From assembly GCF_900114435.1 (NCBI RefSeq), contig NZ_FOZK01000001.1, forward strand, positions 620,001 to 684,000: 64,000 bases of DNA. Reading direction: 5' to 3'. Numbering within the stretch: the stretch's first letter is position 1; every line of letters begins with the position of its first letter. Positions 21,474 to 24,798 of the stretch are shown in pieces. The translations under genes and the position numbers were made by a program. Under the pieces are notes generated by a model. That model had not been told where the DNA came from, did not search any database, and saw nothing but the letters and a program-made list of their open reading frames with translations. This stretch comes from Halomicrobium zhouii. Its GTDB lineage: Archaea > Halobacteriota > Halobacteria > Halobacteriales > Haloarculaceae.

Positions 21474-23078
21474 TCAGTGCCCGGCTTCGTGGGGGTTCAG
21501 TTCGGTCCCGTAGTTTGCGGCGTGGTCCGCGTAGTCGATGAAGCGCGGCGCGTCGGGGTCGAAGGGACGCTCCAGGGAGTCGAAGGCCTTCTTCTTGTCC
21601 CAGGACTGGAGCCCGCCGACGGCGCCGCGGTCCTCCAGGTCGTGGTAGTCCAGGTCGTCCTTCGTCAGCTCCCAGGCGTCCAGGCCCTGCTCGGTCCGGA
21701 CGATGACCGAGGAGTACTCGTCGCTGGACCCCACGGAGCCCACCGTCAGGTCGGCGCAGTAGCCGGTGAAGTCCGCGCACTCGTCACAGCCCTTGAGGGC
21801 GGCGCCGTGGAACGCCTCGACGTCCTCGTCGACGATCAACTCCCCGTCGCGGTCGTACACCATCATCTTCCCGTCGAGGACGTCCATCTTGCCGACGTCG
21901 TCGAGGTCGATGTCGCGCTGTTCGACCAGTTGCTCGCCCATCAGGCGCTCGTAGTTGAAGTTCTTCGTGCACATCAGGGCGATGGTGTAGTCGACGGCGC
22001 GGACGCCGGCCTCCTGGCTCGCGTAGTCCCACTCGAAGTCCTGCAGCGCGCGGATCCCCTCTATCTCACAGGGTGTCCCCACGAGCGCGAGCGAGATGTC
22101 TGCTGGGTCTTTGTCGGGCAGTTTGTGCTCCCACTGGTCGAGCCCCAGGTTCCCCAGCGCCATCGTCTGGTTGTAGATGCTCCCGGCGCTGTCGATCAGT
22201 TCTGCGGGCGTGGTCGCCAGGAAGGACTCGGCCTTCCATGGCTCGTCGTCGCTCTCCGTGGCGACCAGTGCCCCGTCGATCTCGCCTGCTTCGAGCAGGT
22301 GGATCAGGACGCTCGTCACGAGCCCACCGTCCTGGGCGCCCTCACGCCAGTCTTCCTCGACCTTCGCCGAGAACTCGGTGATGGGGTCGCCGGCGCCCTT
22401 GACGTTGTCGTCGCCGCCGGTGATCTTCCACTGGCGCTCATAGCGCAGGCCCCCGCGGGGACAGAAGTCCCAGCACATCGAGCAGCCGGTGCACATCTTG
22501 ACGAGTTCCGGCAGGCCGTCCTCGCCGATGCCGATGGAGTCGGAGGGACACGATGCGACGCAGGTCCCACACTGGATGCAGCGGCCCTCGTCGATGACCG
22601 CCTCGTCCAGTTCCATGAACCAGGTCTTGTCCTCGGGCGTCTCGATATCGTTCATCTCCGCGCGGATCCCGTACGATGGCGTGCCCGGTTTCGCGCCGTC
22701 GGGCGGATTGACTATCTCGTCGGGCCGGCCGTCCTCGACGTCCTGGCTGAGGCCCTCTGCGGGCTTCGTGAACTCGACGTCGCCGAGCTTGCCGTCCTCG
22801 TCGACGTTGGCGGGCGTGGCTCCTCCGTCTGGGACCGCGGTCGAGTCACCACCGGTGTCGCCACAGCCGCACGAACTCCCGCAGCCACACCTTTCCTCGT
22901 CATCGCCGTGGTCGCCGTGGTCGCTGTGGTCTGCGTGGTCGTGCGAGTGGCCGTGAGCATGGCTGTCCTCTGGATCTCCGTGAGCCTCGGGACCCGAGAC
23001 GTCACTGTGGTCCGTTCCGGGGCCGTCCGGAACGCCTGGCATTCGACCCTCGCCGCTCGCGTCCCGCTCTTCAGTCAT
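21474..23078 (-). CDS. F420H2 dehydrogenase (FrhB-type) with two [4Fe-4S] motifs and a metal-binding-like N terminus
   Basis: A 534-residue iron-sulfur flavoprotein-like enzyme. Residues about 33-58 are His/Asp-rich (HGHSHDHADHSDHGDHG) and are followed by CGCGSSCGCG. Two ferredoxin motifs come next, CIQCGTCVASCP near residue 167 and CTGCSMCWDFCP near 196. The C-terminal two thirds is the FrhB/FdhB domain, with LVGTPCEIEGIRALQ and CDECADFTGYCADLTVGSVGS. FrhB proteins oxidise reduced F420 through FAD and pass electrons to Fe-S clusters. The ATG at 23078 overlaps the end of the siroheme reductase gene by 8 bases, so this is probably its electron donor. F420 use is inferred. Confidence 0.85.
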   Translation of the reverse strand: MTEERDASGEGRMPGVPDGPGTDHSDVSGPEAHGDPEDSHAHGHSHDHADHSDHGDHGDDEERCGCGSSCGCGDTGGDSTAVPDGGATPANVDEDGKLGDVEFTKPAEGLSQDVEDGRPDEIVNPPDGAKPGTPSYGIRAEMNDIETPEDKTWFMELDEAVIDEGRCIQCGTCVASCPSDSIGIGEDGLPELVKMCTGCSMCWDFCPRGGLRYERQWKITGGDDNVKGAGDPITEFSAKVEEDWREGAQDGGLVTSVLIHLLEAGEIDGALVATESDDEPWKAESFLATTPAELIDSAGSIYNQTMALGNLGLDQWEHKLPDKDPADISLALVGTPCEIEGIRALQDFEWDYASQEAGVRAVDYTIALMCTKNFNYERLMGEQLVEQRDIDLDDVGKMDVLDGKMMVYDRDGELIVDEDVEAFHGAALKGCDECADFTGYCADLTVGSVGSSDEYSSVIVRTEQGLDAWELTKDDLDYHDLEDRGAVGGLQSWDKKKAFDSLERPFDPDAPRFIDYADHAANYGTELNPHEAGH

Positions 23079-24798
23079 CGGCGACACCCCCCTCCCCGTC
23101 GTGGGCGACCCCGCCGGCCACGTTGGCGTCGGCGCGCTGCATTATCTGGCGCAGGCGGTCGTTGTCCACCCGGCGACACCACTCGTAGAACCGCTCTCCA
23201 TCCTCGCGTTCGTCGGCGTAGGCGTCGAACAGCTGTTCGAGCGCCGGGATGACGCTCCCCGCCGGAACCGCATTTTCCACCCAGTCGAGGAACTCGTTGT
23301 CCGAGCCGAGGCTCCCGCCGAGGCCGAAGTCCATCCCCTCGACGATGTTGTCGCCCTCCTCGTTGGTCGTGCCCTCCGGATCGTTGACGTTGACCGTCTC
23401 GCCGCGGAAACCGATGTCGGCGATCTGGGGCTGGGCGCAGGAGGCCGAACAGCCCGACATGTGCATCCGGACGACGTCGAGGTCGTCGGGCGTGTCGATC
23501 TGTCGGTCCAGTGCCTTGGCCCAGCGGCGGACCCGATTCTTGGTCTCGATGATGCCGTAGTTGCAGAACTCCGAACCGGTACAGCCCACCGCGCCGCGGG
23601 AGAACGGCCCCGGGTCGGGTCGGTAGTTCCGGGCGAAGGGCTCGTTCAGCAGGTCACCGACGTTCTCGGGCGGGACGTGGGTGATCAGGAAGTTCTGGTC
23701 CGTCGCCAGTCTGACCGAGGCGTCCTCGGTGCCGTACTCCCTCGCCGCGCGGGCGGCCTCGGCGAACTCGTCGCCGCCCATCCGGCCGGCGATGACGTTG
23801 AAGCCGACGTACTTCAGGTCGCCGTCCTTCTGGTCGTGGACGCCGACGTGGTCGCCCCGGTACCCCTGGGTGAGGTCCGTCCCGCGCGTGGGGAGGTCGA
23901 CCTGGCAGCGGTCGCGGACCGCTTCCTCGAATTTCTCGGGGCCCAGCTGCTCGACGAGGTAACGCATCCGGCAGACGCCCCGGTTGTTCCGGTCGCCCAG
24001 TTCCTTGAACGTCTGGGCCACCGCGCGGCAGAACTCGACGGCGTGTTCGGGCAGGACGAACACGTCCAGCGGCGAGGCCATCCGCGGACCGTCGGAGAGG
24101 CCGCCACCGACCTTGACGTGGAAGCCGTAGTGGGGCTCTCCCGCCACCTCCCGCTTCGCCGGCGTCAGGCCGACGTCGTTGATCTGTGACTGCCCGCAGT
24201 CGTGCGCACAGCCGGTGATGGTCATCTTGAACTTCCGGGGCAGGTTGGCGTACTCCCGGTTCTCGGTGAAAAAGTCCGAGACCGCCTCGATCACGGGCTG
24301 GGCGTCGAAGCACTCGTGGTCGTCGAGGCCGGCGGCGGGACAGCCCAGCACGTTGCGCGCCGAGTCGCCACACCCCTGGATGGTCGTCAGGCCGACCTCG
24401 TCGTATTTCGCCCAGATCTCGGGGACGTCCTCAACCTCGATCCAGTGTTTCTGGATGTCCTGTCTGGTCGTGATGTCGAGGAAGGCATCGCCCCAGATCG
24501 AGTTCTGTTCCTCGCCGCCGTACTCCTCGGGCGCAGTGGCGTACTCCTGGGCCACCTCGCCGATCACTTCGGCCTGCTCCGGGGTGAGATAGCCGCCGGG
24601 GACCTTCGTCCGCATCATGAAGTAGCCCCGCTGGCGGCCGTGGGCGTACATCCCTGCCCACTTCAGGCGCTCCCACTCGCCGTCGCCCGCGCGCGCTTCG
24701 ATCTCGTCGAAGGTCAGTCCCTCCTCGGCGTACTCCTTCACGTCCTCGACGACGTCGAGGGGATGTTTCTCCTGTTTGTACCGCTCGACCGAGTTCAT
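23071..24798 (-). CDS. Siroheme [4Fe-4S] nitrite/sulfite reductase (NirA/Sir type)
   Basis: Catalyses the six-electron reduction of nitrite to ammonia or sulfite to sulfide. 575 residues with the duplicated ferrodoxin-like and catalytic halves of the family. The cluster/siroheme cysteines are complete in the second half: C406 and C412 in GCTGSEFCNYG, C450 and C454 in MSGCSASCAQPQIAD. Unusually, the first half also keeps cysteines at the equivalent places (C143 and C153; C197 and C201 in TGCAHDCGQSQIND). GGAGG stands before the ATG. It is the first gene of a two-gene unit with the FrhB-like protein. Nitrite versus sulfite cannot be decided by eye. Confidence 0.9.
   Translation of the reverse strand: MNSVERYKQEKHPLDVVEDVKEYAEEGLTFDEIEARAGDGEWERLKWAGMYAHGRQRGYFMMRTKVPGGYLTPEQAEVIGEVAQEYATAPEEYGGEEQNSIWGDAFLDITTRQDIQKHWIEVEDVPEIWAKYDEVGLTTIQGCGDSARNVLGCPAAGLDDHECFDAQPVIEAVSDFFTENREYANLPRKFKMTITGCAHDCGQSQINDVGLTPAKREVAGEPHYGFHVKVGGGLSDGPRMASPLDVFVLPEHAVEFCRAVAQTFKELGDRNNRGVCRMRYLVEQLGPEKFEEAVRDRCQVDLPTRGTDLTQGYRGDHVGVHDQKDGDLKYVGFNVIAGRMGGDEFAEAARAAREYGTEDASVRLATDQNFLITHVPPENVGDLLNEPFARNYRPDPGPFSRGAVGCTGSEFCNYGIIETKNRVRRWAKALDRQIDTPDDLDVVRMHMSGCSASCAQPQIADIGFRGETVNVNDPEGTTNEEGDNIVEGMDFGLGGSLGSDNEFLDWVENAVPAGSVIPALEQLFDAYADEREDGERFYEWCRRVDNDRLRQIMQRADANVAGGVAHDGEGGVADD

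Follow-up and report, generated by a model that had tools for sequence, protein, structure and literature searches.

Two overlapping genes on the reverse strand

The window analysed here is a 64,000-nucleotide stretch of Halomicrobium zhouii DNA (contig NZ_FOZK01000001.1, positions 620,001 to 684,000). On its reverse strand, a gene for a predicted siroheme reductase is followed by a gene for an FrhB-type protein (Table 1). Such a pair was predicted in haloarchaea by Susanti & Mukhopadhyay 2012 (PMC3448663) as aFsr, with subunits aFsr-alpha and aFsr-beta. The original prediction for this locus was of a siroheme reductase and an FrhB-type gene overlapping by 8 bases, in a two-gene state instead of the fusion seen in Fsr; both open reading frames were recovered at the same positions, as two separate frames with the expected overlap. 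The FrhB frame is open up to a GTG at 23087, which would give 537 amino acids, while the ATG at 23078 gives 534 amino acids and exactly the 8-base overlap, ATGACTGA, that is found again in several homologs. Residue numbers of FrhB refer to the 537-amino-acid form (GTG start). Together with GGAGGGGGG just upstream, this overlap makes translational coupling possible. A single fused frame was rejected: the FrhB frame often continues without a stop into the reductase gene, yet the stop of the reductase is present. Among named relatives, the FrhB gene is nearest to one in 'Halobacteria archaeon HArc-gm2' (89% identical).

Table 1. Positions of the features discussed (in the window, except for the last line, where locus identifiers are given)
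Feature	Position	Strand	Evidence
aFsr-alpha, assimilatory-type siroheme [4Fe-4S] sulfite reductase (NirA/Sir family), 575 aa, predicted	23071..24798	-	ORF; PF01077 (two copies) and PF03460; PDB relatives
aFsr-beta, FrhB-type F420H2:acceptor oxidoreductase subunit, 534 aa from ATG, predicted	21474..23078	-	PF04422, PF04432, Fer4; profile search
Start/stop overlap of 8 bases, ATGACTGA, with GGAGGGGGG just upstream	23071..23078	-	
N-terminal extension of FrhB, residues 1-153	22629..23087	-	alignments
Two ferredoxin-type [4Fe-4S] motifs, C170-C180 and C199-C209	22452..22601	-	Fer4, cysteine conservation
FrhB flavin/F420 domain, residues 240-482, with FAD-proximal cluster cysteines C340, C373, C434, C437	21642..22370	-	
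N-terminal siroheme-reductase half with R148, K189, K191, C143; R63 upstream	23902..24372	-	
Siroheme-coupled [4Fe-4S] ligands C406-x5-C412, C450-x3-C454	23437..23583	-	
Second pair, tandem rhodanese/sulfite-type reductase with FrhB directly downstream	L120:7769-11391, L123:5960-9629, L128:7248-10859, 15 or more similar loci		

The reductase contains two copies of PF01077 as well as PF03460, and its relatives in the PDB are plant nitrite reductase (NiR), M. tuberculosis NirA and maize SiR, with Fsr reached only at E~1e-10. The proposed assimilatory type is borne out by this domain composition and by plant NiR and M. tuberculosis NirA being the closest PDB relatives. A Pfam search of the 575-amino-acid protein gave no Fer4 match. 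The cysteines of the siroheme-[4Fe-4S] centre, said to be intact, are all present, and C406, C412, C450 and C454 are invariant in the 78 homologs (78/78). Other cysteines (C153, C197 and C201, and in most sulfite types also C143) are kept in the N-terminal half of haloarchaeal NirA-type reductases. Their four positions correspond to those of the cluster ligands in the C-terminal half, and plant NiR does not have them; they could be left over from an ancestral duplicated cluster site, or be functional.

The FrhB-type protein matches PF04422 (E=1e-22) and PF04432 (E=3e-33), both above the gathering score, with two Fer4 motifs in residues 164-210, and is encoded by the only PF04432 gene of the H. 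zhouii genome. Its cysteines for cluster A (170/173/176/180), cluster B (199/202/205/209) and the FAD-proximal cluster C (340/373/434/437) are kept in 82 to 83 of the 83 homologs; the last four agree with the claim that the C-terminal FrhB motifs are intact. All twelve are also found in the three F420-enzyme sequences compared, except at position 202, a Cys here and a His in Fsr and in the CODH-linked F420 reductase. Profile matches to PDB entries that span the FrhB domain are all F420 enzymes, namely Fsr, Frh, the CODH-linked F420 reductase and formate dehydrogenase beta (best E 2e-45); matches to other PDB enzymes cover the ferredoxin motifs only.

The first 153 residues of FrhB, missing from Fsr and Frh in the alignments, are acidic and rich in His and Cys. 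They are poorly conserved up to about residue 93, beyond which islands of conservation appear in type-1 homologs (those of the kind found here), for instance N94-V95, T136-P137 and D147. Residues 1-76 (22860-23087) are acidic and contain a His-rich stretch, SHAHGHSHDHADHSDHGDHG, then CGCGSSCGCG. Cys67, Cys73 and Cys75 each recur in 64-70 of the 83 homologs, the His richness is not kept, and this N-terminus could be a metal binder.

Conservation of the pair and its relatives

The distribution of the two genes was followed in 391 Halobacteria genomes, evenly drawn from the class. The type-1 FrhB gene is present in 118 of them, and the same 118 have a close homolog of the reductase (at least 74% identical; a fragment in one genome). 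In every case FrhB is the next gene downstream in the same orientation, and the aligned regions are separated by a median of 68 bases; by chance, two unlinked genes would be expected to adjoin at about 3e-4 per genome. The adjacency is far beyond chance. This is the arrangement that the original prediction had hoped to see conserved across Halobacteria, and reductases routinely devoid of FrhB, which it had counted as contrary evidence, did not turn up within type 1 (118/118 paired). Two genomes of the sample have an extra, stand-alone FrhB copy.

A second collection of 80 named loci, from Natrialba, Haloarcula, Halosimplex, Halorubrum, Natrinema, Halarchaeum and others, and partly from the same genomes as the sample of 391, gave the pair 79 times; only L099 departs from this, being a surplus FrhB whose genome also carries a pair, at L086. 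Neighbouring genes gave no functional hint, because those found upstream in many loci, FtsY and prefoldin genes, are housekeeping genes. Some irregular loci were also seen. FrhB of this type stands alone, with no adjoining reductase, at L124:6059-7342, L125:6801-8084 and L099:5980-7395, two of the three proteins being 427 amino acids long, about 70% identical and devoid of the long N-terminal extension. One contig of Halorubrum laminariae bears two copies of the pair, some 41 kb from each other (L049, L050). Split or partial matches to the reductase or FrhB (L095, L113, G136:C1:1324094-1327679 and G225:C3:640476-643839) reflect either decay or assembly error in a few genomes.

A second type of FrhB-linked reductase, 46-53% identical to the first, occurs in 29 of the 391 genomes, as judged by its FrhB gene (45-48% identical). 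The pair was seen directly in 23 of these, and the other 6, on checking, also have the reductase beside the FrhB gene. According to Pfam, run on two representatives, second-type reductases have N-terminal rhodanese domains, two per protein. The second of these domains has the loop YCNTARRLS, with a candidate catalytic Cys, in all 15 proteins inspected; no similar loop was found in the first domain of the same 15 proteins.

Related reductases without FrhB fall outside these types, into a NasD clade and a further one of sulfite type; the latter is present in genomes such as G041 and G016, neither of which has an FrhB match. They have the same NirA/Sir fold and are 37-46% identical, but differ in having no FrhB partner and, for NasD, an Asn at position 191. 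In a maximum-likelihood tree, the FrhB-linked reductases of types 1 and 2 fall on one side of a branch (support 96/85), and the NasD clade with the FrhB-less sulfite-type reductases on the other (support 100/100); the L095 reductase groups inside type 1. The position of the root is uncertain, given the great length of the plant outgroup branch. The simplest reading of this tree is that the FrhB partner would have been acquired once.

Substrate and electron donor

Group I Fsr binds sulfite through two arginines and two lysines, described as conserved across sulfite reductases (PMC10229431). In an alignment run through M. tuberculosis NirA and plant NiR, R63, R148, K189 and K191 match these four residue types in 78 of 78 homologs. 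The discriminating position is 191, which is Lys in all pair reductases (78/78) and in M. tuberculosis NirA, a sulfite reductase, and Asn in all 8 NasD-clade proteins and in tobacco nitrite reductase (N226 position), so that the active-site motif reads Lys-x-Lys in the former and Lys-x-Asn in the NasD clade. Y51 and C143 segregate in the same way for type 1, Phe and Gly being found in NasD and tobacco. Tyr51 and Cys143 may, we presume, correspond to the Cys-Tyr bond that the structure paper on M. tuberculosis NirA names in its title; we take this as a lead only.

These residues bear on whether the same two-subunit enzyme might act mainly on nitrite, as an F420H2-dependent assimilatory nitrite reductase. 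The best named family of the reductase is indeed ferredoxin-nitrite reductase (PRK09566), but the score is far under the family cut-off (384 of 594 bits). An F420-dependent nitrite reductase is known in ANME-2c (FsrII, PMC9295563), Fsr reduces nitrite as well (PMC10229431), and siroheme reductases often accept nitrite too. Against a nitrite enzyme stand Lys191, Y51 and C143, as well as the separate NasD-type protein of H. zhouii, which has the Lys-x-Asn motif and whose gene lies within a few kb of one for a molybdopterin oxidoreductase (presumably NasA). We consider a mainly nitrite-reducing pair unlikely. Because of K191 and the Arg/Lys active-site residues, as opposed to the NasD-type Asn, sulfite is most likely the substrate, and much more so than nitrite. 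The original prediction had left the choice open between the two; the sulfite half is upheld by the Lys-x-Lys motif, and the nitrite half becomes less likely with the NasD-type Asn absent.

As for the donor, homology provides good support for F420H2. We infer from the sequences that the two proteins form a physical alpha-beta complex, and the donor and the order of electron flow are read in the same way. FrhB would take a hydride from F420H2 onto FAD, and the electrons would then pass to the FAD-proximal [4Fe-4S] cluster, to the two ferredoxin-type clusters and finally to the reductase, whose siroheme-[4Fe-4S] centre would reduce sulfite to sulfide with six electrons. The genome contains cofD (F420 synthesis) and npdG (F420:NADP reductase), both above curated cut-offs, and F420H2 could therefore be regenerated from NADPH. 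AlphaFold2 modelled the two proteins with low confidence (mean pLDDT 52.5 and 68.1), probably owing to shallow alignments, and the models were not used. For Fsr, a positively charged cleft has been inferred for F420 (PMC10229431).

Two other readings of the electron path were weighed. The FrhB family is not exclusively F420-linked and includes members that use ferredoxin, such as plant HCAR and BciB, and a PF04432 match also exists in Synechococcus elongatus, though none was seen in Haloferax volcanii, a control genome; FrhB could then feed the reductase from reduced ferredoxin or another donor, in an HCAR-like manner and with no part for F420. We hold this to be improbable, as no HCAR structure is among the PDB sequence matches over the FrhB domain, genes for F420 biosynthesis and F420:NADP reductase are at hand, and a flavin relay would be superfluous, because FrhB-less homologous reductases presumably draw their electrons straight from ferredoxin. 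The CODH-linked FrhB subunit reduces F420 (PMC11493965), which raises the case of a pair working backwards and reducing F420 with electrons from sulfide or ferredoxin. This is very improbable: Fsr is reported to be unidirectional toward sulfide, and with F420 at about -380 mV and sulfite/sulfide at -116 mV (PMC10229431), sulfide oxidation by F420 would be uphill. We conclude that the two genes most likely specify the subunits, alpha and beta, of an assimilatory-type sulfite reductase that depends on F420H2 (aFsr), and the split, F420H2-linked siroheme reductase of the original prediction, already predicted earlier as aFsr, holds as the best reading.

H. zhouii has another sulfite-type NirA, without FrhB, at L119:6860-8686 on a 134-kb contig (contig C6). 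It may therefore hold both ferredoxin-type and F420-type sulfite reductases, and F420 would not be generally needed for sulfite reduction in haloarchaea.

Known systems and the source of sulfite

The pair itself is not new, having been a known prediction since 2012. The tree legend of that report names four haloarchaea (Halogeometricum borinquense, Halorhabdus utahensis, Halalkalicoccus jeotgali and Haloterrigena turkmenica; PMC3448663), and the pair was still called putative in 2022 (PMC9295563); no report of an aFsr assay was found in the open-access literature. The architecture is identical, with two genes, an aSir-type alpha and an Fsr-N-type beta. The H. zhouii genes are adjacent, the alpha subunit is of the aSir/NirA type with the C-x5-C...C-x3-C signature, the FrhB beta has two N-terminal ferredoxin-type clusters, and there is no essential difference: the pair is a further member. 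What is new is the strict pairing, the residue evidence for a sulfite type, the clade structure and the rhodanese-fused second pair, whose FrhB partner is apparently unreported.

Compared with group I Fsr (Methanocaldococcus jannaschii, Methanothermococcus; PDB 7NP8, 7NPA), the order of FrhB, two N-terminal ferredoxin clusters and siroheme-[4Fe-4S] reductase is shared, as are the four Arg/Lys substrate residue types. However, group I Fsr is one polypeptide with a Dsr-type half carrying an inserted ferredoxin domain, whereas H. zhouii has two genes and a four-domain NirA/Sir-type reductase with no such insertion. FsrII of ANME-2c is also an F420H2-linked siroheme reductase, with a likeness to the predicted aFsr, but it is fused, of the Dsr type and altered in its substrate arginines, and with F420H2 it reduces nitrite, not sulfite (PMC9295563).

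The source of sulfite was looked for in 60 genomes, 30 with the pair and 30 without. ATP sulfurylase (PF01747) was found in 1 of the 60, whether pair-bearing or not, and CysH (TIGR00434, above cut-off) in 0 of the 60; in H. zhouii, PF01507 gave weak matches only. Sulfate assimilation was therefore rejected as the source, and since the searches did not bring up the usual genes of sulfate activation, the sulfite must have another origin. In line with these counts, the Natrinema genome paper states that sequenced haloarchaea lack the adenylylsulfate route to sulfide and that their way of making sulfide is poorly understood; the same paper proposes that in haloarchaea thiosulfate is converted to sulfite by a sulfurtransferase and the sulfite then reduced (PMC3402447). 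The reductase probably acts on sulfite that stems from thiosulfate, sulfonates, the medium or some other route. Its likely role is to provide sulfide for cysteine and to remove toxic sulfite, in the manner of a sulfur source or of detoxification, as in Methanocaldococcus.

The tandem rhodanese fused to an FrhB-linked reductase suggests thiosulfate as the source of sulfite, and the second pair fits the sulfurtransferase proposal; it is predicted to carry out F420-linked thiosulfate/sulfite reduction. A 2024 survey reports the rhodanese fusion in 19 halobacterial proteins and, where it describes them, does not mention FrhB (PMC11237513). Tentatively, and with more doubt than belief, we picture haloarchaea as driving sulfite to sulfide with F420 through both the aFsr pair and the rhodanese-fused pair, thiosulfate being cleaved and its sulfite reduced on the same complex.

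In 2021, curators of haloarchaeal genomes counted only one F420-dependent reaction reported in halophilic archaea, and called the role of F420 enigmatic (PMC8305020). A strictly conserved, sulfite-type, F420-linked reductase would, if true, be a partial answer both to the role of F420 and to the making of sulfide in haloarchaea.
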